Source: a virus. Taken from it: 37,814 bases of DNA. Under the pieces are notes generated by a model that saw only the letters and a program-made list of their open reading frames with translations, was not told the DNA's origin and ran no database searches. This document shows, one piece after another, positions 2,509-21,343 of the stretch (position 1 is the stretch's first letter; each line of letters starts with the position of its first letter). The translations under genes and the position numbers were made by a program. Location: positions 1-37,814 of the IMG/VR virus record IMGVR_UViG_3300049914_000198; one strand, 5' to 3'.

Positions 2509-2834
2509 TGCGTACCCACGTATTTTTAAGTGATAAAGATGGTAATTTAGTTAATCCCACGTTTAAAAGTTGCCCCGCTGGTGGTTACGCCGCGGTAACG
2601 ATTGCTAGTAACGCAGGTCGTGGGCCGGACGTAGCGTGTTTGTATTGTCGGCTCCAGTCGAGGAGCGGGAACGGTGCAATTAGGGTTAGAATAGGTGGGG
2701 CCTGTATTTCGTCAACTGGAATATTGCTCCCTGATAGTCCTACGGTGTTGCCGTATGCCGTAACGAATTTATCGCAATTATTTTTTTATGGGGCTACGAA
2801 CTCGAATATTGTGGATATTGAGTATTTTATATAA
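2508..2834 (+). CDS. Small beta-rich virion-type protein with VFLSD N-terminus
   Basis: A 108-residue protein beginning MRTHVFLSDKDGNLVNP. The same opening (M-x-R-x-x-VFLSD-x-x-GN) occurs in the 119-residue protein at 3645-4004, so the two share an N-terminal module and are probably paralogues. The rest is rich in G, S, T, I and V, with predicted strands and few charges, typical of an exposed capsid or fibre protein. A good GGGAGG ribosome site precedes the ATG. TAATG coupling joins it to the LamG-like gene. A virion decoration role is inferred. Confidence 0.6.
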   Translation: MRTHVFLSDKDGNLVNPTFKSCPAGGYAAVTIASNAGRGPDVACLYCRLQSRSGNGAIRVRIGGACISSTGILLPDSPTVLPYAVTNLSQLFFYGATNSNIVDIEYFI

Positions 2835-3643
2835 TGGGTATCTGGGATAATATAAAATCGTTTTTTGGGTCTGGCACTCCTGCCACAGGTAGTGATTCAC
2901 GTCCTCCCGTTATTCCATTGGGAACGGTAGCCGCCGATAATTTGGTTGCGTGGTATAAAATGGATGATAATGCCGCGTCCACGGTTGTTCTGAACGAAAA
3001 AGGTGATGCGGGTACGTCTGTAAGAAATACGAACCTGATGCACGTACCTGGAAAAATCGGCGGGGCGTTGAGTTTTGACCCTGATAATAATGATTATGTA
3101 GATTGCAATAATAGTTATCAATCGACTTTTGATAGTAATTTTACGATAAGTTTATGGGCAGAACCCAATGATGGAAACCATGATAGTACACAAAATTTAA
3201 TATGCGAGATTCCGCCAAATGATTCTTTCTATCTCGAATTTGATGACAGTGGCAAATTACAATTCGGTTATTATGTAGGAGAGGCCGAAGTTATTCAGGA
3301 CAGCAACACGGGTTTTTCTAACGGACAGGAAACTTGGCATCATATAGTAATAACATTAGAACAAGTTACAGCATCAAAAGTTACTCTCTGTTTTTATTTT
3401 GATGGGCAAAGTGCAGGAACATATACGAATTTGTCGATGGTAATGTCTGGTTATACTAATGCCAATAATTTAAGAATGGGTAGTAGGGGAGGTGTAGAGT
3501 ATTTCTCCGGTTCTCTCGATGATGTGAGAATTTACAACAAGGCATTAACGGCGGGTGAGATACTGCAATTATACAACGAGAGTAAAACAATAATGCAATT
3601 ATCAATAGCAGGTGAAAATTTATTTAGTATGATGGGAATATAA
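2834..3643 (+). CDS. LamG/concanavalin-like carbohydrate-binding protein
   Basis: A 269-residue protein. Residues about 33-245 match the laminin-G-3/concanavalin A-like jelly-roll pattern: LVAWYKMDDNAAS near the start, then GGALSFDPDNNDYVDC, FTISLWAEPND, WHHIVITLEQ, FYFDGQSAGTY and GSLDDVRIYNKALTAGEILQ at the end. Such domains bind sugars and on phage particles often serve in adhesion to host glycans or surfaces. The first 30 residues (GIWDNIKSFFGSGTPATGSD) may be a virion-anchoring segment. The gene is coupled by TAATG to the small VFLSD protein, which suggests that the pair acts together on the particle. The fold call is confident; the location on the virion is inferred. Confidence 0.8.
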   Translation: MGIWDNIKSFFGSGTPATGSDSRPPVIPLGTVAADNLVAWYKMDDNAASTVVLNEKGDAGTSVRNTNLMHVPGKIGGALSFDPDNNDYVDCNNSYQSTFDSNFTISLWAEPNDGNHDSTQNLICEIPPNDSFYLEFDDSGKLQFGYYVGEAEVIQDSNTGFSNGQETWHHIVITLEQVTASKVTLCFYFDGQSAGTYTNLSMVMSGYTNANNLRMGSRGGVEYFSGSLDDVRIYNKALTAGEILQLYNESKTIMQLSIAGENLFSMMGI

Positions 3644-3644
3644 A

Positions 3645-4004
3645 ATGGCAAGAAGTGAAGTTTTCTTATCAGATAATGCGGGAAACAGGTCAGCTCCTGT
3701 TCCTGAAGCGTCCCAACCAAAAACCCCTCAGACCGCGCAGAAACTTACACAATCCAGCGCGGGAACTGATACTTCGGCAACTGTTGTGGCAGGACAGAAA
3801 TACAGGTTTACTGCACAGATAACTGGAGGGTTTGTTTTCGGGTTGGCAACAGTGGCTACTGGTTCGGAGGCGAATATTCGTTGGGCGTGTCCCCTGGGAA
3901 AATCCATAGAGATACAGATACCTGTTGGCTACACCACATTGCACTATACCACTGATACAAATAGTGCGATAGGTTATCTGGTAGAACTTATACAGGGGGG
4001 TTAA
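3645..4004 (+). CDS. Small virion-type protein, paralogue of the VFLSD protein
   Basis: 119 residues starting MARSEVFLSDNAGNRSAPVP, sharing its opening with the protein at 2508-2834. A threonine- and serine-rich linker (residues 16-45) leads to a compact beta domain (KYRFTAQITGGFVFGLATVA ... SIEIQIPVGYTTLHYTTDTN). That pattern of small hydrophobic strands with IRWACPLGKSIEIQIP resembles trimeric decoration or fibre-tip proteins by eye, but no family can be named. It lies two bases after the LamG-like gene, so the three genes probably form one adhesion or decoration module. Confidence 0.6.
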   Translation: MARSEVFLSDNAGNRSAPVPEASQPKTPQTAQKLTQSSAGTDTSATVVAGQKYRFTAQITGGFVFGLATVATGSEANIRWACPLGKSIEIQIPVGYTTLHYTTDTNSAIGYLVELIQGG

Positions 4005-4336: not shown

Positions 4337-4713
4337 TGGCCGCTAAATCTACAAAAGGTGTAAAGACAAAAGCCGGCCAACTTTTATCAAAGTTCCTGCG
4401 GCAAATAGCTGAAGAGGTAACGGAGCTTGACCAGAAGGACGGGGAAGATGTCCTCGTTTCTAAGGCTGAAAAAATGGCCAGGATTATGTTTAAAGAAGCA
4501 TTAGGATACACCGAGGTAGAAGTAAATAAAAATGGTGGGCGGAAAGACATAATTCACAAGCCGGATAAAACTATGATTGGTCTAATCTATGAGAGAATAG
4601 AAGGTCGCGCGCCGTTGGCGCAAGAAGGAACTGGCAAACAGGAAATTCCTGATAAAGTGGATGAACAGGCGAAGAAAAGAATAGAGGTGGCTGGTGAGTC
4701 AGAACCTGATTGA
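4336..4713 (+). CDS. Probable small terminase subunit
   Basis: 125 residues directly upstream of, and overlapping by 20 bases, the large terminase gene. That position and the size suit TerS, which recognises the packaging site and regulates the large subunit. The N-terminus is basic (KSTKGVKTKAGQLLSKFLRQ), the middle is helical (AEKMARIMFKEALGYTEVEV) and the tail is highly charged (KVDEQAKKRIEVAGESEPD). I see no canonical helix-turn-helix, so the assignment rests mainly on context and could equally be another accessory protein. Confidence 0.5.
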   Translation: MAAKSTKGVKTKAGQLLSKFLRQIAEEVTELDQKDGEDVLVSKAEKMARIMFKEALGYTEVEVNKNGGRKDIIHKPDKTMIGLIYERIEGRAPLAQEGTGKQEIPDKVDEQAKKRIEVAGESEPD

Positions 4714-6625
4714 AATCCCCAGACCCGTGTTGTCTACCCCGTTCCCCGATATCCCTCGGCTGTGGACGTGCCCGAAGACCGGGTTGAAGGTTCCTAAAGG
4801 GTTACAAGAGAATCTTGATTGGCGTTCTTCGTTGCTTAGAAAAGCTAAAAATGATATAATCCTGCAACGGGATTTACTCGCGGCTTGTAAAGTAAGCCAG
4901 TTGTTCTGGATAAATGCGTTTGCGTGGACATATCATCAGTTCGAGGTGGACATTGCCACAGGAGAACGAAGAGAATGTAAACACCCCCACATGCCGTTTA
5001 TAACGTGGACGATACAGGATGAACTGCAAAATGATTTTGAAACGTGTTTTTTAAACGCAAAGGATATCCTGATTGATAAATCCAGAGACATGGGGGCAAG
5101 TTGGTGCTGTGTGAATTTTCTGCATTGGCTGTGGCTATTTAATCCTGATTCGCAGTTACTGGAGATGTCGCGTACGCGGGAATATGTTGACCAGCCAGGA
5201 AATATGAAAGCGTTGTTTCAGAAACATGATTATATAAATGAATGGCTCCCTGATTGGATGCGGCCTGAAGAGTGTATGCAGGGCGAAAGAAACCGCACGA
5301 AGATGCACATGAAGAATGTTTGGAACGGCAGTACAATAGACGGTGAATCCACGACGGAACATGCGGCTAAAGGTGATAGGCGTAAGGTCGGTTTGCTGGA
5401 TGAATTTGCTATGGTAGAATACGGTGCGGCTATGAACCAGGCGACAAGAGATGCCTGTTTAATGAGAATTTTTAATTCCACGGTTTGTGGCGCAGGAACA
5501 GAGTATAGTAAACTTAAAAACTCTGGTAGGGTTAAAGTTTTTATAATGCCGTTTTATGAGCACCCGGAAAAAGGTAAGGGGCGTTATGTTAAACCCACGG
5601 ATACAGGAGGGTTTGATATTTCTTCTCCGTGGTTAGAACAGGAAATGTTGGTACGTTCTCCCAGAGAAGTAGCCACAGAAATTCTAAGACAGGATATAGA
5701 ATCAGGTGATAGATTTTTTACCACGCATAATATAGATAAACATAAGGTTATGTATGGTAAAGAACCTCTTACCGTTTGGAATATAAATCTAAAACCGAAT
5801 ATTGCGAAATCCGCGGTACGAGATATTATCAGGAGTAAGAGCCAGGATTCCTACACCTTGTCGAAAACTTCGCAGGGAAATTTAAAAGTATGGGTTCCGT
5901 TAATTCTGGGAAGACCAGACCAATCAAAGGCATATATTTTTGGTATTGATTTAGGAAAAGGTCAGGGGGCATCGAATTCTGTTGTTTCTATAAAGTGTAA
6001 AGAGACCGGGGAAAAAATAGCTGAATGGTGTTGTGCCACAGTTCCACCGTATGATATGGCCTATGTTGTTGTGGCGTTGGCTTTATGGTGTGGTGGGAGA
6101 AAACCACATGGTATCCCGTTTTTAAAATGGGAGATGAACGGCCCAGGTTGGGATTTCGGCAGGATAATGGTAAAGGAATTTTATTATCCGTATTACCATA
6201 GGAATATTTCTCCTGGAAAATTGGTTGATGAAAAATCAGATAGTTATGGTTGGCACAACCACACCCAGAGTAAGTTTGAATTGCTTGCTCTTTATGACCG
6301 AGTCCTTGCACACGGGGGATATGTTAATCACTCGGTAGAAGCATTGGAAGAGGCAAAATATTATGTACATCTGTCCGAAGGTGGAATAGGGCCGGCATTT
6401 TTAACAGAGGAAAGTGCGTCTGCCAGAAAAACCCACGGAGACAGGGTTATGGCCGATGCGCTTACTCTTGAAGATTCTGATATTCCGAAGAGGTCTAGTA
6501 AATATGATGGTGATGTAATCCCTGAACGGTCTATGGGTTTTAGACTACAACAGGAAATTGCCAAGAAGAACAGAAAAAATAAATCATGGCGAAGAGAATA
6601 TGATTTTAGCAGGGCGGTAAACTAA
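4694..6625 (+). CDS. terL: Terminase large subunit
   Basis: 643 residues, the usual length for the ATP-driven packaging motor and nuclease. The ATPase domain shows a Walker A-like KSRDMGASW (residues 129-137) and a Walker B LLDEF with D236 and E237. The nuclease domain has the RNase H-like FGIDLGKG (D419) and a late acidic pair in HGDRVMADAL (D583, D588). The GTG start at 4694 has AGAGGTGG a few bases upstream and lies inside the preceding gene, so the two are translationally coupled. The protein docks on the portal and cuts concatemers into genome lengths. The stop shares a base with the next ATG. Residue assignments are by eye; the family is certain. Confidence 0.95.
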   Translation: MSQNLIEIPRPVLSTPFPDIPRLWTCPKTGLKVPKGLQENLDWRSSLLRKAKNDIILQRDLLAACKVSQLFWINAFAWTYHQFEVDIATGERRECKHPHMPFITWTIQDELQNDFETCFLNAKDILIDKSRDMGASWCCVNFLHWLWLFNPDSQLLEMSRTREYVDQPGNMKALFQKHDYINEWLPDWMRPEECMQGERNRTKMHMKNVWNGSTIDGESTTEHAAKGDRRKVGLLDEFAMVEYGAAMNQATRDACLMRIFNSTVCGAGTEYSKLKNSGRVKVFIMPFYEHPEKGKGRYVKPTDTGGFDISSPWLEQEMLVRSPREVATEILRQDIESGDRFFTTHNIDKHKVMYGKEPLTVWNINLKPNIAKSAVRDIIRSKSQDSYTLSKTSQGNLKVWVPLILGRPDQSKAYIFGIDLGKGQGASNSVVSIKCKETGEKIAEWCCATVPPYDMAYVVVALALWCGGRKPHGIPFLKWEMNGPGWDFGRIMVKEFYYPYYHRNISPGKLVDEKSDSYGWHNHTQSKFELLALYDRVLAHGGYVNHSVEALEEAKYYVHLSEGGIGPAFLTEESASARKTHGDRVMADALTLEDSDIPKRSSKYDGDVIPERSMGFRLQQEIAKKNRKNKSWRREYDFSRAVN

Positions 6626-6786
6626 TGCTAACGACAAAAGACCTGAAAGAAATGTTGATAATAAAAGTTGGAAAGATTGGCAAAATGATAGCCTATCTAA
6701 AAACTGAGGACGATACGATAGATGTGGCCTATGACCTTGAAGAGCTACAACAAGAAATTTTAGGTCTTCTTGGAGAGTTAACCTAA
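6625..6786 (+). CDS. Small helical protein between terminase and portal
   Basis: 53 codons, sharing one base with the terminase stop and one with the portal start (TAATG at both ends). The sequence is nearly all helix, with heptad-like leucine and isoleucine spacing (LKEMLIIKVGKIGKMIAYLK, then DLEELQQEILGLLGEL), so it probably forms a coiled coil. No family is recognised. Its placement suggests a packaging or portal-assembly accessory. Confidence 0.6.
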   Translation: MLTTKDLKEMLIIKVGKIGKMIAYLKTEDDTIDVAYDLEELQQEILGLLGELT

Positions 6787-8645
6787 TGCGTGATAATATA
6801 AGTAATAGTATAGCGACCTCGGCCAACCCTATTGTGCCCACGAAGGTACAGGAAATTGTGAAACAGGGTTATGAGCGTATGCGGAATTACCGTTTAGCTA
6901 CGGCTATGTTTATAAAGGAATACGTCGGCAGTTACTATCGGAACGAGGCCGGCCTTACAGGAGAGGAACCATTAAACCTAGTATTCCACAATATCAGGGC
7001 TATGGTGCCTACACTTGTAATGCGAAACCCGATAAATAAAGTTGTTACTCCGATTCTTCAGAATAGACCCTATGCAGAACTTTTAAGCCTGGGGCTTAAC
7101 ACGATAAACAAACAGATGAAGTTGGATAAGATTCTCCGCGGTTGGGTTACTGCCGCTTTATTCGGATGGGGCATTATAAAAGTAGGGCTTTGCGCCAAGG
7201 GAGAATTTTTAGAATTCGGTGATATGCGTGTAGACCCAGGACAGATTTATGCAGCCCTGATTGATTTGGATATGTTTGTTCTTGACCCGCTTTGCAGAAG
7301 TCTTGAAGAGGCGTTGTTCCAGGGTCATAGAACTATGGTTCCGCGGCAACTCCTCTTGGACACCGAAGGATACGACCACGATGAGGTTGCAAAACTCCCG
7401 CCCACGCGTTCTATTTTTAGACCTGATTATATCGCCAATATGACCAGAAAATTTATCGGCATGTACCAACAGATATCCATGCAGGACATGGTAGATGTTG
7501 TGGAATTGTATGTGCCGGAATCTAATGTAATAGTCACGATACCAGACCCCTATCAGACCTACTCACATAAATATATTGGTGTGGTAGATTACGAAGGACC
7601 GAAGGAGGGACCATATGTTCATTTGTCTTTTACACCCCCTGTCCCTGGGAATCCGTTTCCTGTTGCTCCTGTGTCTATGTGGTTTGATTTGCACCGTATG
7701 GCTAACAGGATGCTCTCGAAAATAATGGACCAGGCCGACCGCCAAAAAGATGTGCTGGTTTATAACCCCGCGCAGGCAGATGAAGCGCAGGAAATTGTTG
7801 ACGCAAGAGATGGTGATTCTGTAATGTCCACGAATCCTGAAGGTGTTAAGGTTATTAGCTACGGTGGGCAGGAACGAAATAATGAAATAATGTTAAACCA
7901 GTTGCAGATGTGGTATAATTATATTTCAGGAAATCCAGATGCTACCACAGGGAATATGACAGCGGCCACTAAAGGTTCACAGGACACAGCGACACGGGCG
8001 CAGATTATGCAAGCTAATGCCGGCATTACCGTGGAAGACGCAAAAGGAATTTTATATGATGCCACCGCTGAGGTAAACCGAAGATTTGCGTGGTATCTAC
8101 ACTATGACCCGTTTATAAATTTGCCGATGATAAAACGTACTACGGATAATCAGGAAATGCAGGTTTCTCTTACACCAGAACAGAGGTGCGGGGAATTCGA
8201 CCAGTTTAATTTTGAAATTGTTGCCCGCTCCATGAGTCCCGTAGACCCAGGCGCGAGAGCGAAAGCATTGTTGGATTTTTGTTCCACGGTATTGCCCGCG
8301 GCTGTAGCATCAGCGATGCAGATGATGCAGTTGGGACAACAATTTAATTTGCAATTATATTTAGGTACTGTAGCTGAAGAGATGGGGATTAGTGATTTAC
8401 TCGCAGGGATATTCGAAGACCCGTTATTTATACAGAAGATGCAGTTGATGGTAACTCTGGGCATAAAAGACCCTGGGAAAGGAACGTACAGTGGTGGCGG
8501 AGAAAGTGGTTTACCGAATACGATGGCAGGTATTTTACAGAACGGTGGCTCTCCAGTGAGCCAGGTAAACGAAGGTTTTAGTACACAGGTTAGACAGAAC
8601 GCCCAAGAGGTTGCGGCTGTGGGGCCTGGGCAGATGAATAGATAA
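6786..8645 (+). CDS. Portal (head-tail connector) protein
   Basis: 619 residues following terminase, the normal length and place for a portal. The N-terminal part (YERMRNYRLATAMFIKEYVG, LNLVFHNIRAMVPTLVMRNP) and the central region with WGIIKVGL, MRVDPGQIY and FVLDPL match portals of phages with large divergent connectors. A glutamine- and alanine-rich stem with TATRAQIMQANAGITVEDAK follows, and a C-terminal glycine- and serine-rich tail. The protein forms the dodecameric ring for DNA entry and exit at one capsid vertex. It overlaps its downstream neighbour by one base. The call combines context with typical sequence features. Confidence 0.85.
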   Translation: MRDNISNSIATSANPIVPTKVQEIVKQGYERMRNYRLATAMFIKEYVGSYYRNEAGLTGEEPLNLVFHNIRAMVPTLVMRNPINKVVTPILQNRPYAELLSLGLNTINKQMKLDKILRGWVTAALFGWGIIKVGLCAKGEFLEFGDMRVDPGQIYAALIDLDMFVLDPLCRSLEEALFQGHRTMVPRQLLLDTEGYDHDEVAKLPPTRSIFRPDYIANMTRKFIGMYQQISMQDMVDVVELYVPESNVIVTIPDPYQTYSHKYIGVVDYEGPKEGPYVHLSFTPPVPGNPFPVAPVSMWFDLHRMANRMLSKIMDQADRQKDVLVYNPAQADEAQEIVDARDGDSVMSTNPEGVKVISYGGQERNNEIMLNQLQMWYNYISGNPDATTGNMTAATKGSQDTATRAQIMQANAGITVEDAKGILYDATAEVNRRFAWYLHYDPFINLPMIKRTTDNQEMQVSLTPEQRCGEFDQFNFEIVARSMSPVDPGARAKALLDFCSTVLPAAVASAMQMMQLGQQFNLQLYLGTVAEEMGISDLLAGIFEDPLFIQKMQLMVTLGIKDPGKGTYSGGGESGLPNTMAGILQNGGSPVSQVNEGFSTQVRQNAQEVAAVGPGQMNR

Positions 8646-12679: not shown

Positions 12680-13969
12680 ATGGCCGAACCCAGTAGCCGA
12701 CATTCGATGTATGACTGGTTGTTGCACGTTGCGAGGGAGGGTGGACTCGCGTATTATGGTGTTGACGGACAACAGCGGGCGATGCCCCCTATTGACCAAC
12801 ACGACCTTGATTGGTGTAAGGAAATAATAAATCACGGCATTTCTAATTTTGTTTCTGATTGTCCTGCGACAGGTTGGCGGTGGCAGAAACGAATATTACA
12901 ATTACCTCTCACGGGAACGCGGGTAACAGGAACCATTGACACTGTTGATACACTAGATGTAATAGACGCTTCTCTTATTACAAGTTATCCTGATGATGAT
13001 TCTTTGAATGGCTGGTATATTTATATTACCAGTGGAACAGGAATTGGTAGTTGGGCAATAATTACGGATTATGAAAGTAGCACAGGAACTATCTCTGTTG
13101 CCGAATGGCTAACTCAATCTGGGAATCCTGGTGGTACTTCTCCTGCCGCAGATAGTGGATATGCAATCACTCCTGTAGAAACTGTTGGTGGTAATATAGG
13201 ACGATATCCATTGCCCGAAGATTGTGTCGGAGCGGATGGTCAAATAAAATATGCCGCGGATTCTAACGTATCAGTTGATATCCAGTGGGTGAGTGAATCT
13301 TATATCCGAGGAACTAGGGCGATTACTACGGACGCGGGATACCCCACGAAGGCCGCAATACGCAGGTTAGAACCTATTGCCGGTACTCTCGGCCCTAAAC
13401 GCAGGTATGAGTTACTCGTAGACCCTAATCCATATTCTAATTGGGTTCTGGAATTCCCGTATACCGCGATGTTTAACGCGTTGGATTGTGAGACAGGACT
13501 CGCGGATTCGGCGGGTTCCACCACGTTGGTTGATTCCGCACGAACCGAAGTTGATGGTTATTTTATTGATTGGATTATAAGTATAGTAAACGGTACAGGC
13601 AAGGGATTATATGCCGTAGTTACGGATTTTGCTTCTGGGGCATTTACTGTGACCGAATGGTTAGGAACCAGCGGGAGCGGGACACCCGATGAAAATAGTG
13701 TGTATTATGTTGAACCAATGAATAATCTGCATCCCGCAGGGCAAAGATTTGATGCCTGTGTCCTTGCTGCGATTCTTGCTAATGCCGAAGACCATTTTGA
13801 AGATATGCAGAGTCAGGGCAATAATACAAAATACATCCAAAAGTTTTTGCCACAGGCTTACAAAATTGACGCGATGTCTGCGCCAAGAAAATTAAATACG
13901 TGGAACACTCGCCCGCATGAACGGACGAATATTTATCGAAACGCGAATTACGTTATTTTTGGAGAATAA
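12680..13969 (+). CDS. Head-tail adaptor protein with duplicated insertion domain
   Basis: 429 residues with a GAGGAATAA ribosome site. The N-terminus (LLHVAREGGLAYYGVDGQQR, DWCKEIINHGISNFVSDCPA) and C-terminus (LHPAGQRFDACVLAAILANA, EDHFEDMQSQGNNTKYIQKF) look like the helical bundle of portal-adaptor proteins (gp4/gp6/gp11 type), which seal the connector. Two related beta inserts break it up, at about residues 87-175 and 274-350: WYIYITSGTGIGSWAIITDY versus DWIISIVNGTGKGLYAVVTD, each followed by (A/T)EWL. Adaptors of this class are usually half this length, so the inserts are an expansion. The adaptor role comes from context and helices, and the repeat is seen directly. Confidence 0.65.
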   Translation: MAEPSSRHSMYDWLLHVAREGGLAYYGVDGQQRAMPPIDQHDLDWCKEIINHGISNFVSDCPATGWRWQKRILQLPLTGTRVTGTIDTVDTLDVIDASLITSYPDDDSLNGWYIYITSGTGIGSWAIITDYESSTGTISVAEWLTQSGNPGGTSPAADSGYAITPVETVGGNIGRYPLPEDCVGADGQIKYAADSNVSVDIQWVSESYIRGTRAITTDAGYPTKAAIRRLEPIAGTLGPKRRYELLVDPNPYSNWVLEFPYTAMFNALDCETGLADSAGSTTLVDSARTEVDGYFIDWIISIVNGTGKGLYAVVTDFASGAFTVTEWLGTSGSGTPDENSVYYVEPMNNLHPAGQRFDACVLAAILANAEDHFEDMQSQGNNTKYIQKFLPQAYKIDAMSAPRKLNTWNTRPHERTNIYRNANYVIFGE

Positions 13970-14140: not shown

Positions 14141-14398
14141 ATGAATTCACCAGGCACACATTATCTAACCCATGAAACTATGATTGCTGCACCAGCCGGA
14201 GTTGCCACGCCGAAGATAATCTATAAATCACAGGACGGAATTCTGTTATGTTACGGAATTACCGCTCCCAGTTCAGCCGAGGGTTACGCTCCAGGTTGTA
14301 TATTTATAGATGTAAATGGTTCCAGTACGACTACAGTTCTGGCGGTAAATGTCGGCACTAAGGCGTCTTGTACCTTTACGTATGTGACCATAAACTGA
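14141..14398 (+). CDS. Small virion-type protein, tandem copy 1
   Basis: 85 residues starting MNSPGTHYLTHETMIAAPAG, preceded by AAGGAGAAA. It and the next gene are close paralogues: about 57 of roughly 82 positions are identical by eye, including ATPKIIYKS, DGIL-CYG, GYAPGC-FIDV and LAVN-GT. The motif GYAPGC(I/L)FIDV with a late VN-GT-A repeats in small structural proteins I recognise from phage head or fibre regions. Mostly beta, with two conserved cysteines. A surface or decoration role on the head or tail is inferred. Confidence 0.6.
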   Translation: MNSPGTHYLTHETMIAAPAGVATPKIIYKSQDGILLCYGITAPSSAEGYAPGCIFIDVNGSSTTTVLAVNVGTKASCTFTYVTIN

Positions 14399-14412: not shown

Positions 14413-14661
14413 ATGGATAGTCCAGGAACTCATTACTACACGCATGAGAGTATGATTAATGCACCCCCAGGAAATGCTACACCGAAGATAATCTATAAAT
14501 CAGAGGATGGAATTTTGATATGTTATGGCACGACAATTCCCACTGATAATACCGCAGGGTACGCTCCGGGTTGTTTGTTTATAGATGTCGACAGTTCGAG
14601 TCTTGCTGTAAACAGGGGCACAGGTGCGTTGTGTAATTTTGATTATAAAACTATAGATTAA
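14413..14661 (+). CDS. Small virion-type protein, tandem copy 2
   Basis: 82 residues from ATG 14413 (MDSPGTHYYTHESMINAPPG). The start was placed there because GAGAGGAGA lies upstream and it aligns with copy 1; an upstream in-frame ATG at 14368 lies inside copy 1. Compared with copy 1 it lacks a short TTTV insertion after the serine run. The adjacent head-to-tail duplicates suggest recent gene duplication, perhaps to make a two-component or dosage-increased surface layer. Confidence 0.6.
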   Translation: MDSPGTHYYTHESMINAPPGNATPKIIYKSEDGILICYGTTIPTDNTAGYAPGCLFIDVDSSSLAVNRGTGALCNFDYKTID

Positions 14662-14671
14662 GGAGGTCCCC

Positions 14672-14905
14672 ATGAGACTTGATTTTCCCTTACAGGGGTT
14701 ACATCAGGGACTTCCCGCAGTTGACCAGCCTTTACAGACATCACCGATGATTAGTAATTGTCGGCCTACAGATGTCGCCGAGGATAGAATCCGTGGTGGT
14801 CAGCGTCCAGGCATGGTTAAGGCATATTCCACACAAGTAGGTGGAGACCATCCTATTATAGCGATGGTATCCTTGGAAACTACTTATATAGAACCGGAAC
14901 CATAA
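14672..14905 (+). CDS. N-terminal piece of split tail propeller protein
   Basis: 77 residues with a perfect AAGGAGG ribosome site. The sequence LDFPLQGLHQGLPAVDQPLQ followed by TSPMISNCRPTDVAEDRIRG and GQRPG is the characteristic start of a long neck/tail-hub or propeller-like tail protein in related phages, as I remember that family, where it runs straight on for hundreds of residues. Here it stops after HPIIAMVSLETTYIEPEP, and the expected body appears at 16666-18264. TAATG couples it to the next gene. It is therefore read as a detached head domain, able to rejoin the body by assembly. A homology search would test this. Confidence 0.6.
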   Translation: MRLDFPLQGLHQGLPAVDQPLQTSPMISNCRPTDVAEDRIRGGQRPGMVKAYSTQVGGDHPIIAMVSLETTYIEPEP

Positions 14906-15762
14906 TGGCGTTATTTGATTATTATAATACTGGAAAAGATGATGTTGTATATCTAGACAATATCAACTGGCTGGCGCAGACTTTTACCCCATCGGAGAAT
15001 TACACTATAACCAGTGTAAAATTGCTTATATGGCGAGTTTACACGCCTGGAACTGTTACAGTAAGCATAAAAGCGGTGGATATAGACGGGAAACCCACTG
15101 GCGATGATTTATGTTCCGGCACTATAAACGGTAACACCCTTTCTGAATCAGACACAGATACTTATACGGAAATAACTTTTGGTGATGGCTGTTCGCTTAC
15201 GAGTGGAACTCAATATGCTATTGTCGTAAGGTCGGCGGCAGGAACGGTTGAATGGGATTACGATAACAGTACTCCCGCCTATGCCGGAGGAATGCAAGCA
15301 GGTTCGCTTGATGGCGGCTCCTCTTGGGCTTACACCTACGATGGCGGCGATTTTATGTTTGAGACTTACGGAACGGCAACCGAAATGGTTGCGGTTCCTG
15401 ATATCGTTGGGATGACTCAGGCTGCTGCGGAATCTGCGCTTACGGAAGCGGGGCTTATTGAAGGAGATGTAACAACGGCATATAGTAATGCCGTCGTTGT
15501 TGATTTAATTATAAGCCAAGACCCTGCTGCCGAAACTGTAGTAGACGTGGGTTCTGCGGTAAATTTTGTAATATCCCTTGGGCCGAGAATTACGTCTAAC
15601 ACTAATAGGCCAGAAGGATACAATCCTGATGTAGCGTGGGATGAAGAAACAAGAACATGGGTCGGTGTTGCCAGTAGTGGCGGAGGCAGATACGGGGAGC
15701 GTCTAATTGCCGTGGGAACTGACGATAATGAATACGGTGTGATTTACTGGGGCGGTGTGTAA
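14905..15762 (+). CDS. Tail protein with beta-sandwich, PASTA-like domain and repeat module
   Basis: 285 residues. Residues 1-160 form a beta sandwich of carbohydrate-binding type (WLAQTFTPSENYTITSVKLL, then GTQYAIVVRSAAGTVEWDYD). Residues 163-227 match a PASTA domain (VPDIVGMTQAAAESALTEAG, ending SQDPAAETVVDVGSAVNFVI). PASTA domains bind cell-wall muropeptides in bacterial kinases and penicillin-binding proteins. Residues 235-285 (RPEGYNPDVAWDEETRTW, then GGGRYGERLIAVG) recur at the end of the 158-aa protein. The gene overlaps both neighbours by TAATG and sits inside the split tail protein. It is probably an adhesin that contacts cell wall or surface glycan. Domain calls are by eye. Confidence 0.65.
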   Translation: MALFDYYNTGKDDVVYLDNINWLAQTFTPSENYTITSVKLLIWRVYTPGTVTVSIKAVDIDGKPTGDDLCSGTINGNTLSESDTDTYTEITFGDGCSLTSGTQYAIVVRSAAGTVEWDYDNSTPAYAGGMQAGSLDGGSSWAYTYDGGDFMFETYGTATEMVAVPDIVGMTQAAAESALTEAGLIEGDVTTAYSNAVVVDLIISQDPAAETVVDVGSAVNFVISLGPRITSNTNRPEGYNPDVAWDEETRTWVGVASSGGGRYGERLIAVGTDDNEYGVIYWGGV

Positions 15763-16187
15763 TGTCCAATTTTAGAAATGTACAGAATAATGGGTATTGG
15801 GAACCTGGTGGGATTTATACATTTGAGGTCGCTGGAACAAAGGTTGGTTTAGAAAATCAAACGGGCACATATTTTAATCCATATCTTGGAGCTTGCGATA
15901 CTTCTGATGTATTAGACTATTATGAAGGATTTCAGTTAATTTGTGATACACAATCCGCGGGTGATTCCTGTGGAAATGTATATGTCGTGGGGCCTGTATC
16001 TGGTAATTATTTATTTGACAACAATGATGAAAATTTCGCAGGGGGCATCGAAGTAATTACGGTCTTGGAACACATAATTTTGGAAGACGGGTGGTGGCGT
16101 TATACAGTCCAGGTGGAAGAAACTGTTCCATTAGGGACATATTATCTTAAAGGTAGAGAATTTCATTATTATACTATGTTGGTGTAA
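15762..16187 (+). CDS. Hypothetical 141-aa tail-region protein
   Basis: Starts MSNFRNVQNNGYWEPGGIYT at the shared base with the previous stop, with no separate ribosome site, so translation is probably coupled. The sequence is beta-rich and aromatic (GGIYTFEVAGTKVGLENQTG, WWRYTVQVEETVPLGTYYLK), without charged clusters or membrane segments, suiting a compact surface domain. No family is named. Location between the two copies of the RY-LIxVG module suggests that it belongs to the same adhesion insert. Confidence 0.55.
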   Translation: MSNFRNVQNNGYWEPGGIYTFEVAGTKVGLENQTGTYFNPYLGACDTSDVLDYYEGFQLICDTQSAGDSCGNVYVVGPVSGNYLFDNNDENFAGGIEVITVLEHIILEDGWWRYTVQVEETVPLGTYYLKGREFHYYTMLV

Positions 16188-16188
16188 T

Positions 16189-16665
16189 ATGGGTTGGGAA
16201 TTTTTCCCCATAATATTTGAGTCGTTGCCGCCTGAGAAACCTGTCTGTGTTTCCCCTTTAAATAGCTCCACAGGGGTTTTAAAAAACGCCGGATTAGAAT
16301 GGGCAGACCCAGGTAGTGAAACTAATCACGCTGCCACAGGGTTTAATTTATATTTTAGCACTAGCATTGCGGGGCTTGTACAAATAGGTGAAGCCCATGA
16401 GTCTGATGCCGTGACAGAAACTGCCAGTAATCTACTTGCTCCTGATAGTTTATATGGAGAAGGGATAACCTATTATTGGCGGGTAGATGCGTTTAATGAC
16501 GCAGGGACAACAACAGGGGACGTGTGGAGTTTTACGGTCGAACAATTTTCCTTCCCTCCTGATAGACCAGATGACTATGACCCAGATATAGGTGGGGGTG
16601 GAAGGTATAACCAAAAATTAATAGTTGTGGGGCATAAATGTATTTATGTGGGCAGCGAGGAATAA
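16189..16665 (+). CDS. Fibronectin-III-like tail protein with repeat module
   Basis: 158 residues. Residues about 15-118 show the FN3-like pattern: PEKPVCVSPLNSSTGV, a central LEWADPGSETNHAATGFNLY, then YYWRVDAFNDAGTTTGDVWS and FTV. FN3 modules occur often on phage tails and may bind carbohydrates. Residues 126-158 (RPDDYDPDIGGGGRYNQKLI, then VVGHKCIYVGSEE) repeat the C-terminal module of the 285-aa protein and look like a blade of the following propeller. The gap before the 532-aa gene is zero, so the repeat may hold the two products together. Confidence 0.65.
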   Translation: MGWEFFPIIFESLPPEKPVCVSPLNSSTGVLKNAGLEWADPGSETNHAATGFNLYFSTSIAGLVQIGEAHESDAVTETASNLLAPDSLYGEGITYYWRVDAFNDAGTTTGDVWSFTVEQFSFPPDRPDDYDPDIGGGGRYNQKLIVVGHKCIYVGSEE

Positions 16666-18264
16666 ATGGCTTTACCAACATTAACTCCGTTAGACGCGAC
16701 CAACAATTTTTATCCAGAGGAAGATGATTTGGATACCAGCGGATATCTGACCATGGTCCCCGCCTGGCAGAAAGTTTGGTTTGCTGATGGCAGACCCTAT
16801 GACACAGACCCACACATAACAGGTTATCATAAATTAGATTTTATAAATACAAGAATCGTGTGCGAGGTTACGGATGGCCCGCTAACTAAAGGTTACACGT
16901 TAGAACAGGCAACCTCTGGGGCAAAAGGAATTGTCGACGAGACAGTTACCGTAGAAGATGAAACGTGGGTTTTAGTTTATAGAACTACGACCACAGAGTT
17001 TGATACAACCAATTTAATCACTGAATATGACCCCGAAGGTGTAGCCAGCGGAGCAACGATTGCAACGATTAGCGATGTTGTTGCACCACCCCATTATTTA
17101 CCGTGGATTTTAACTACGGACAAAGGACTGTTCCCTGATGGTGGTTCTAATATAATGTGTCTCGCGTTTGGTCGACTTTTTATGAACAGTGTTTACAATC
17201 CAAATCAATGGTTTGCTACGCGGGCAGGAGACCCGTTGGATTTATTAGAAGCGCAGGATGATATCCAGACTGCTGTGTCCAGTCAGAGTTCTAAAGCTGG
17301 ACTTGTAGCTAAGCCCTTAATTGCTTTAATAGCATATAAAGATAACTATGTAATATTCGGTTTGGATACACAGATGTGGGTGCTTCGTTCTGACCCTGCG
17401 GCTGGTGGTATTTTAACACAAATTTCTGATGAAACAGGAATATTTTCCCCAACATCTTATTGCTGGGATGATAAAAACAATTTATATTTTCTGGGGATGA
17501 ACGGCTTATACGCGATATCAGCAGATGCGATAGTAAACGCCCAGTCTCCGCAGAATATAACCAAGCAACATTTGCCTAAATATATTGGGTCTCTTGGTTT
17601 AAACCGCAGGACAGACCGCGTAACAATGACCTACGATAAAGAACGATTCGGAATAAATATTTCTATTTCCCAACAGGATGGGCAATGGGGTTCGGCATTG
17701 TGGTGTGACCTAAGAACAGGTGGTATGTTTCCAGAAACTTATGCCCCTGGTTGTATGCCGGCCTCGATGTTATATTTCGACAGCAGACGGGCAGACTACA
17801 GAGGTTTACTATTAGGATGCTATGATGGTTATGTCAGAAAATTTGATGAGACCATAAAATCAGATGAAGACGCTGATGATGTTTCCGTGGCAATTACCAG
17901 TTACGCTGTGATAGGGCCTGTTACTTCAGGACAATATATAAAAGCGTCTAGCCGTGTAGACCCGAATAAACCCAGAGCGAAAATAAAAGTTAGTAATATT
18001 TCTATTACTACTGGTGTGGGCACCGATGATTTAGAAGTTTCTATCTACACAAATAAAACAGCGGCGGGGTTAGTTAATGATTTACTTACGGGAGTAAATC
18101 CCAAGATAGCAAAAGTATTTACCGGCAGTAAATTATATCCCACGATACGTCAGGACGTAAGTGACGGGGCAATAGCCATAAAAGTAGGAAATACAACCGT
18201 GAATCAGGAATGGTCCATGGAAAGTATAAATGCAAACATATCCCAGAGAGGCAGGGTTAAATAA
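16666..18264 (+). CDS. Tail propeller body (P22 gp10-like / tail stabilisation)
   Basis: 532 residues. Its repeated blade-like motifs (GRLFMNSVYNPNQWFATRAG, ALIAYKDNYVIFGLDTQMWV, TSYCWDDKNNLYFLGMNGLY) and an N-terminal WFADGRPYDTDPHITGYHKL match a beta-propeller tail-hub protein such as the P22 gp10 type, which closes the portal channel. It lacks the normal N-terminus, which is encoded at 14672-14905. An insert at residues about 65-140 (GYTLEQATSGAKGIVDETVT) resembles extra domains in other neck proteins. The ATG follows directly on the FN3-like gene stop. The blade region is supported by pattern, and the exact family is a best guess. Confidence 0.65.
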   Translation: MALPTLTPLDATNNFYPEEDDLDTSGYLTMVPAWQKVWFADGRPYDTDPHITGYHKLDFINTRIVCEVTDGPLTKGYTLEQATSGAKGIVDETVTVEDETWVLVYRTTTTEFDTTNLITEYDPEGVASGATIATISDVVAPPHYLPWILTTDKGLFPDGGSNIMCLAFGRLFMNSVYNPNQWFATRAGDPLDLLEAQDDIQTAVSSQSSKAGLVAKPLIALIAYKDNYVIFGLDTQMWVLRSDPAAGGILTQISDETGIFSPTSYCWDDKNNLYFLGMNGLYAISADAIVNAQSPQNITKQHLPKYIGSLGLNRRTDRVTMTYDKERFGINISISQQDGQWGSALWCDLRTGGMFPETYAPGCMPASMLYFDSRRADYRGLLLGCYDGYVRKFDETIKSDEDADDVSVAITSYAVIGPVTSGQYIKASSRVDPNKPRAKIKVSNISITTGVGTDDLEVSIYTNKTAAGLVNDLLTGVNPKIAKVFTGSKLYPTIRQDVSDGAIAIKVGNTTVNQEWSMESINANISQRGRVK

Positions 18265-20209: not shown

Positions 20210-21343
20210 ATGCCTACATTATATGATAGAGTAAGAGATTCTGATATTTATAGTATAACTCCTGGTTCAGAACTCCAAAAGAAATTGGAAAAACCTAATA
20301 CCACTGGAATAATTATGAAACCGGACAAAGGTTATAGAGTTATTGAAGGTGGGGGTGTAATCTCAGATTATACACCGGGTGGTTCCTTTAGGGCGATGAC
20401 AATACCCACAAATGAGTTTGCTGGAAATTCTAATCAAGGATTAGAAAATACCACGCCCTACAGTATCATAGAGCAAAACCTCGCTGATTTAAAAACAGAA
20501 TATCGTGGGATAATCGCAGACCTGGAAAAACAGTCTGAAGGTGCAGACCCTGGGCAAGTGAGGGCGATATTTAACCGCCACCAACAAGCCTATAACCAGA
20601 AAAAAGCCGCGATTCTCGAAGGTAAAAATCAGTTAGGTATGATAGATAAACTGGAGGCCGAAGGACAGATAGATTCGGCAGGGGCAAATAAAGCAAGGTG
20701 GGGATTAGTTGTGCCACCGGATGTCCATAAAGAGATGTTTCCCACAGTACGGGCAGACACAAAATTTTCTATCGCGCAGATGAAACAAATAATCGGGGGA
20801 CCCGCAAAGGACAAAGAAACCGGGGGCATTGTTCTAAAAGGACCTATTGCTGAATGGTCTAATCCGTCAAATATCCCGGTAGAACCGGCCAATAGATATT
20901 GGTTTACTAAACGAGAAAACGAACCTAGGACGCAAGAACAATTAATTACACAATATCAAGGTGCCATAGAACAAGTGGAATCTGACGTTCTCGGCATGCC
21001 TATGACAAATACTCAACGGGAACAGTTCGATACTGCGTGGGATGCTAAGATGAAGGATTATCCAAATTATCAGTGGGACCCAAATTCCGGCGAAATTCAG
21101 GCACTTAGAGCCAGAGGACCATTGAGCATGGCAGGAGGCAAACAGATTTCTCCGTTTGGAAAACACCTGATGAATTACCCTGTTGAGAACCAGGGGATTC
21201 CTGATGAGAGAAAACCTGCGGCTACACCAGCGGCTACAATACCCCCGAAACCCGCAGAATATCCTGATGCTGTGTGGAACGAGCAGCATCAAATGTGGAC
21301 TGTGGTTAAAAATGGCAAACTTATTGGTTTGAGAAATAAATAA
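20210..21343 (+). CDS. Hypothetical 377-aa virion or ejection protein
   Basis: 377 residues starting MPTLYDRVRDSDIYSITPGS after AAGGAAATT. A central helical, coiled-coil-like segment (EQNLADLKTEYRGIIADLEK, RHQQAYNQKKAAILEGKNQL) suggests elongation. The C-terminus PAEYPDAVWNEQHQMWTVVK followed by NGKLIGLRNK matches a motif found at the ends of phage tail proteins: Y-x-D-x-V-W-x-E and W. The 285-aa protein has a similar YNPDVAWDEETRTW stretch. The TAATG overlap with the giant protein suggests that both are made together, as ejection proteins often are. No enzyme motif was found. Confidence 0.55.
   Translation: MPTLYDRVRDSDIYSITPGSELQKKLEKPNTTGIIMKPDKGYRVIEGGGVISDYTPGGSFRAMTIPTNEFAGNSNQGLENTTPYSIIEQNLADLKTEYRGIIADLEKQSEGADPGQVRAIFNRHQQAYNQKKAAILEGKNQLGMIDKLEAEGQIDSAGANKARWGLVVPPDVHKEMFPTVRADTKFSIAQMKQIIGGPAKDKETGGIVLKGPIAEWSNPSNIPVEPANRYWFTKRENEPRTQEQLITQYQGAIEQVESDVLGMPMTNTQREQFDTAWDAKMKDYPNYQWDPNSGEIQALRARGPLSMAGGKQISPFGKHLMNYPVENQGIPDERKPAATPAATIPPKPAEYPDAVWNEQHQMWTVVKNGKLIGLRNK

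Follow-up and report, generated by a model that had tools for sequence, protein, structure and literature searches.

A podophage tail nozzle encoded in pieces around adhesin genes that appear to carry part of its propeller

The DNA analyzed for the current report is a stretch of 37,814 nucleotides from virus record IMGVR_UViG_3300049914_000198 (the whole stretch is referred to here as the window), in which a region of five genes (positions 14672-18264) encodes a tail protein in separate pieces. The 77-amino-acid (aa) and 532-aa proteins at the two ends of this region are the front and the body of a podophage tail nozzle with the SU10 gp17 / P22 gp10 / T7 gp12 fold, and the genes inserted between them seem to contribute a portion of the propeller. 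The reading that we favor, at a probability of about 70%, is that of a nozzle gene in pieces whose products are rebuilt non-covalently and into which adhesins are plugged by means of a C-terminal strand tag. Phages usually hang their receptor-binding proteins on an intact tail via dedicated docking domains; here the nozzle gene is cut at two places, an arrangement stably kept in a large clade of uncultured phages, and the strand that is missing seems to be supplied by the adhesin genes in between. Should this docking be real, it would amount to a built-in plug and socket for host recognition. The features of the region, all on the + strand, are as follows.

14672..14905 (+): 77-aa N-terminal piece (N-piece) of the tail nozzle, predicted to hold platform strands and the strand that opens the propeller (velcro strand), HPIIAMVSLETTYI
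14903..14907 (+): junction 1, a TAATG stop/start overlap, the putative fission point after the velcro strand
14905..15762 (+): 285-aa adhesin with an N-terminal beta domain, a PASTA domain and a C-terminal tail resembling propeller strands
15388..15576 (+): aa 162-224 of the 285-aa protein, a PASTA domain (PF03793, E=2.9e-12)
15607..15753 (+): C-terminal tail of the 285-aa protein, of the upstream type (type assigned by position), RPEGYNPDVAWDEETRTW...GGGRYGERLIAVGTDDNEYGVIYW, tail profile E=1.2e-14
15762..16187 (+): 141-aa protein without a tail, resembling the head of a tailed 174-aa protein of the related contig L016 (4132-4656)
16189..16665 (+): 158-aa protein with a fibronectin-III-like domain and a C-terminal tail resembling propeller strands
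16594..16653 (+): C-terminal tail of the 158-aa protein, of the body-proximal GH type, GGGRYNQKLIVVGHKCIYVG, tail profile E=4.8e-6
16663..16668 (+): junction 2, TAAATG, the cut between tail strands and body, found only in the window's clade
16666..18264 (+): 532-aa nozzle body, predicted from Foldseek comparison of its model to hold the rest of the propeller and the C-terminal platform

A preliminary description of this DNA had given the same five open reading frames (ORFs), with their coordinates, a spacing of 1.76 kilobases and junctions of no more than one base of overlap or gap, and all of these were found. In order, the four junctions are a 1-base overlap (TAATG), a second 1-base overlap (TAATG), a gap of 1 base (TAATATG) and a gap of 0 (TAAATG), and 1,760 bases separate the stop of the 77-aa gene from the start of the 532-aa gene. 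Upstream lie a terminase gene (4694-6622) and a portal gene (6786-8642) whose product resembles the SU10 portal with a score just below Pfam's cut-off, so that the setting is that of a podophage structural gene block.

Sequence searches with the two pieces were uninformative: Pfam and PHROG gave nothing significant for the N-piece or the body, tblastn of these and of the L036, L037 and L039 proteins (related contigs are designated here by L numbers) found no match among annotated phages, a sequence search of solved structures with the queries A1 and A2 gave nothing meaningful, and L037 and L039 as single-sequence viral queries returned only themselves. The identification comes from predicted structures. 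The low-confidence model of the 532-aa body, when compared with solved structures by Foldseek, had the nozzles of SU10 (E=2.4e-11), Pan3 and VP1 as its top matches, with T7 gp12, Kp9 and P-SCSP1u lower in the ranking. The model of the joined homologue in L037 is far better (predicted local distance difference test score, pLDDT, 79.4; predicted template modelling score, pTM, 0.75), with pLDDT of 79-95 in the N-piece blocks and mostly >88 from residue ~450, in the body; it has a confident strand at residues 69-80, within the N-piece, and strands at the tail position at 282-292 and 295-299. It matches the SU10 nozzle at E=9.5e-19 and also the nozzles of Pa223, VP1, P22 gp10, Sf6, GP4 and T7, with target-normalised TM-scores of 0.66 for Pa223, 0.62 for VP1 and 0.55 for P22 gp10. 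The large beta-propeller and the platform domain of the nozzle fold are both present in this joined model, and the "long tail-hub" protein with a propeller that had been proposed for the window is more exactly a podophage tail nozzle. Among predicted viral structures, long single proteins come nearest to it; the window and its clade have the pieces as separate ORFs, and the nozzle is in this sense split.

That the two proteins are parts of one was borne out by homologues of the kind anticipated, with a start like the 77-aa protein and a body like the 532-aa protein. The N-piece and body profiles both match single ORFs in five contigs (L037, L039, L099, L105 and L107), and separate genes of the window correspond to one gene in these relatives; the N-piece profile (A4) matches the first 70-80 residues of the joined ORFs of these five and of L097. 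Since the two proteins are joined in relatives, the nozzle protein presumably assembles from pieces, which was one of the two possibilities offered earlier. What lies between N-piece and body varies among the joined forms: L107 (a 572-codon open frame) has essentially no insert, L037 has a domain resembling carbohydrate-binding module CBM66 (Foldseek, target-normalised TM-score 0.45-0.49), and L105 has a different insert that we read, from its sequence, as possibly propeller-like. L097 and L098 have the N-piece joined to most of the body and a break further down. In both, at 7938/7942 and 2392/2396, respectively, the otherwise joined ORF is broken at profile position ~323-332, and the ORF lengths are equal.

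A further group of relatives is cut once. In L036, L089, L090, L093/L094, L096, L101, L102 and L103 a separate N-piece ORF abuts an ORF in which an adhesin-like region, the strand and the body follow one another, and no gene lies between the two ORFs. The gap holds a beta-helix protein in L038 and a different gene in L106, and in L104 the N-piece itself contains a lectin domain. Throughout the split relatives, including phages without an inserted gene, the N-piece ends at the corresponding point. L036 and L038 have a fibronectin type III (FN3)-like plus strand segment, equivalent to the 158-aa protein, in frame with the body. The same two contigs have another insertion point further along, where the propeller ends and the platform has yet to begin, which in L038 (7022-9826) holds an in-frame LamG domain and in L036 (6862-8712) a pectate-lyase-like tailspike gene that splits the body again; judged from chain order only, it may coincide with the place where fibres dock according to the description of T7 (PMC6702177).

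One could suppose that a single covalent nozzle is still made through programmed frameshifting or stop read-through at the junctions, and it is true that junction 1 is a 1-base overlap and that at junction 2 the 158-aa and 532-aa reading frames are in phase with one TAA between them. We consider this very improbable. Other phages have unrelated genes between the pieces, including endonuclease VII-type genes in L002 and L004, and the next start lies anywhere from -4 to +12 bases from the end of the N-piece across relatives, so that the frame at junction 1 is not conserved; the mechanism was rejected on this ground.

The layout of the window recurs in 26 other contigs holding both pieces, 27 with the window itself, from different metagenomes and metagenome-assembled genomes (MAGs), and in all 27 the body is without the strands that come after the insertion loop in the joined forms. 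In a tree of 40 bodies, whose root is set by midpoint only and is not fixed, the cassette form is one clade (support 100/100); a branch with support 92/84 sets the joined forms off to one side, with the once-cut forms in between. Four close relatives have dN (nonsynonymous substitution) well below dS (synonymous substitution) for N-piece, tail and body, a pattern that points to selection to keep the pieces. An assembly error or a decaying gene, for which we found no supporting point, can practically be dismissed in view of the recurrence of the layout and these ratios. The nozzle split is an old architecture inherited by the whole clade rather than a break peculiar to the window phage. The preliminary description had held that homologues of the 532-aa protein beginning as it does here would speak against a break; such homologues exist, and what they reveal is that the break is clade-wide.

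The other possibility offered earlier, that a receptor-binding cassette broke an intact gene, looks less fitting, since an in-frame domain is already present at that place in joined forms and several phages are split there without an extra gene. The order looks like one in which an adhesin domain in a loop was followed by gene fission and then by multiplication of the adhesin genes. The reverse, in which separate pieces came first and later fused into the joined genes, would be compatible with a tree rooted by midpoint and with split forms being the majority of the contigs found, but solved nozzles of the same fold (T7, SU10) are described as single chains, the N-terminus of T7 gp12 contributes platform strands, and the nearest predicted viral structures are long single proteins; we regard it as quite improbable. 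The series of joined, once-cut and twice-cut forms makes the route from domain insertion through fission to a multi-gene adhesin cassette directly testable.

Two of the interval genes had been said to carry surface-binding domains. For the 285-aa protein this holds (the PASTA match, together with remote PHROG matches); the case of the 158-aa protein is weaker, its body being fibronectin-like with no Pfam match. The 141-aa protein has no Pfam or PHROG match; it shares an MSNFRxxQNNGxW start and a DDGW...YYLK segment with the 174-aa protein of L016. A feature missed in the preliminary description is that the 285-aa and 158-aa proteins have a C-terminal motif in common (GGGRY..xLIxVG...IYxG), whose position corresponds to that of the propeller strands contained in neither N-piece nor body. 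The match to a profile of this tail ends 2 aa before the stop in the 285-aa protein and 3 aa before it in the 158-aa protein. All 59 matches of the profile lie between N-piece and body, 54 of them at 0-4 aa from a stop, and free tail genes occur in 27 of 27 contigs with a strand-less body as against 0 of 19 with the strand kept in the body or in a joined ORF. Since hmmsearch of the tail profile directly against the tail-fused ORFs gave no match, profile-profile alignment was used; without a positional prior, the best match of the tail was the expected strand, at E=7.5e-4 to 1.5e-3 in the tail-fused forms and E=0.02-0.09 in the joined forms. With the tail-fused relatives, this placed the tail type of the 158-aa protein on the strand that precedes the body.

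Several points weigh against the idea that these tails complete the nozzle. The model of the window's own body is weak (pLDDT 64.5, pTM 0.42). The contrast of 27 with 19 contigs is confounded by ancestry, and the absence of the tail profile from fused forms is partly a detection effect, because the profile was built from the cut clade. The match of the tail to the joined strands is short (~19 columns) with modest E-values. There are two or three tailed genes per locus and one slot per subunit in the joined forms. Where a locus has at least two tails, the GH motif is missing from 27 of 31 upstream tails and present in 21 of 28 last ones, and two such sequence classes fit distinct sites better than free interchange.

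The nozzle might alternatively be split and reassembled from the 77-aa and 532-aa proteins while the cassette genes encode ordinary fibres or adhesins attached elsewhere, with the shared motif a generic beta-hairpin anchor or folding tag. The short, weak homology just described is in keeping with this, as are the two tail classes, at least one of which may dock elsewhere, and the presence in the cassette of untailed genes such as the 138-aa gene of L010, which matches the GP4 fibre I protein gp80 (PF23140, 9e-16). We nevertheless judge a generic anchor unlikely, for in each of two profile sets the expected strand is where the tail matches best, no tail lies outside the stretch from N-piece to body, every contig with a strand-less body has one, and the FN3-like plus strand segment is in frame with the body in L036 and L038.

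Between close relatives the adhesin heads are replaced while the tail, N-piece and body are kept. L005 and L007 are 80% identical in the N-piece, 83% in the tail and 87% in the body, and their adhesin heads are only 19-21% identical, with negative alignment scores; in L006, with a body 95% identical to that of L005, the first position holds a 53-aa tail-only gene. Fission within the cassette has apparently gone further, in that L004 encodes a fibronectin-like domain in a single ORF (2640-3875) that a TAATG or TGATG overlap divides in relatives (L002 4481, L005 5615, L006 4646, L007 5608, L012 about 1391).

The mechanism that we propose for a nozzle rebuilt from pieces draws on T7 gp12, in which the N-terminal 45 residues provide three platform strands and the first propeller strand acts as the velcro that closes the ring (PMC6702177). 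By analogy, the 77-aa protein would supply the N-terminal platform strands and the velcro strand, and the 532-aa protein the remaining propeller and the platform; the assignment of blades rests on secondary structure and the published T7 description. The first cut would fall in the loop after the velcro strand, where joined relatives can carry an in-frame carbohydrate-binding-like domain, and the second, in the window's clade, would leave the adhesin genes with the following propeller strands at their C-termini. Given the strand arrangement of T7 gp12, a separate N-piece would find a ready-made socket in the body, pairing with its C-terminal part, and the pieces, made from one translationally coupled operon, would refold together non-covalently. 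An adhesin tail might fill the next open blade as the N-piece does, completing it and anchoring a receptor-binding head to the nozzle of the virion, and exchange of heads upstream of the conserved tail would then change binding, and perhaps host range, with the nozzle untouched. More specifically, several adhesins, each with its own copy of the C-terminal blade strand, might plug into the six subunits of one nozzle; this strand-complemented form is tentative, and we put its chances somewhat below even. If it is true, one virion could display more than one type of adhesin, and heads could be exchanged without altering the nozzle.

Among 15 starts of the window that were compared, that of the N-piece has the strongest Shine-Dalgarno pairing, at -10.8 kcal/mol; the 285-aa start (-3.5) and the 158-aa start (-1.5) are near background (median -1.9, 5% quantile -6.5). 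A strong first site followed by stop/start overlaps suggests that the five genes are translationally coupled.

Directly before the N-piece are two similar small genes in tandem (14141-14398, 85 aa; 14413-14661, 82 aa) that share ...GTHYxTHExMIxAPxGxATPKIIYKSxDGILxCYG...; several of the relatives inspected have one such gene at that spot. The 429-aa protein at the adaptor position (12680-13969) contains two copies of a domain (about aa 66-171 and 246-361), and the nozzle bodies of L015 (50% identity) and L016 (43%) have this domain as an insertion. Distant from the tail genes, upstream of the terminase, is a LamG_3 lectin-like gene (2834-3640; PF13385, 2.8e-25). A 377-aa protein (20210-21343) ends in a short W-rich segment, YPDAVWNEQHQMWTVV, reminiscent of YDPD.YWDEET..W in the tails and possibly unrelated to it. 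Six of eight matches in genome collections are contigs of Planctomycetota MAGs, and the other two are labelled Neptuniibacter and Lokiarchaeota; the host assignment is weak because the matches are bins. L100, a contig of the window's clade, was binned with a Lokiarchaeota MAG, which may reflect either a binning error or an archaeal host.

A search of the open-licence literature turned up no account of a split nozzle. In the fold of its joined homologue the protein is like the podophage nozzles of T7 (gp12), P22 (gp10), Sf6, SU10 (gp17), GP4, VP1 and Pa223. Such nozzles are hexamers that sit below the adaptor and close the DNA channel. The T7 and SU10 nozzles are described as one polypeptide, whereas here one or two cuts divide the gene and other genes stand between its parts. 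The 138-aa gene of L010 occupies the same interval and is like GP4 fibre I gp80; this relative has no strand tail, and the window has no PF23140 match.

Phage genes in pieces can arise through the insertion of homing endonuclease genes, as for example in ribonucleotide reductase. The nozzle is like these cases in that a gene is split into pieces, presumably still working together, and in that some intervals hold endonuclease VII-type genes, as noted above, although the window's own interval has no endonuclease gene. It differs from them in that the interval holds mainly adhesin genes, that the split also occurs without an insert, and that the neighbouring genes seem to carry part of the split protein's own fold.

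Phage receptor-binding proteins can be modular, with an N-terminal anchor and an exchangeable specificity head, as described for example for Klebsiella phages (PMC8262889). The cassette likewise combines a conserved anchor with exchangeable heads, but its anchor, instead of an N-terminal domain, is a short C-terminal tail that matches a nozzle strand. In our estimation the arrangement combines known kinds: a podophage nozzle, a gene in pieces and a modular receptor-binding protein.

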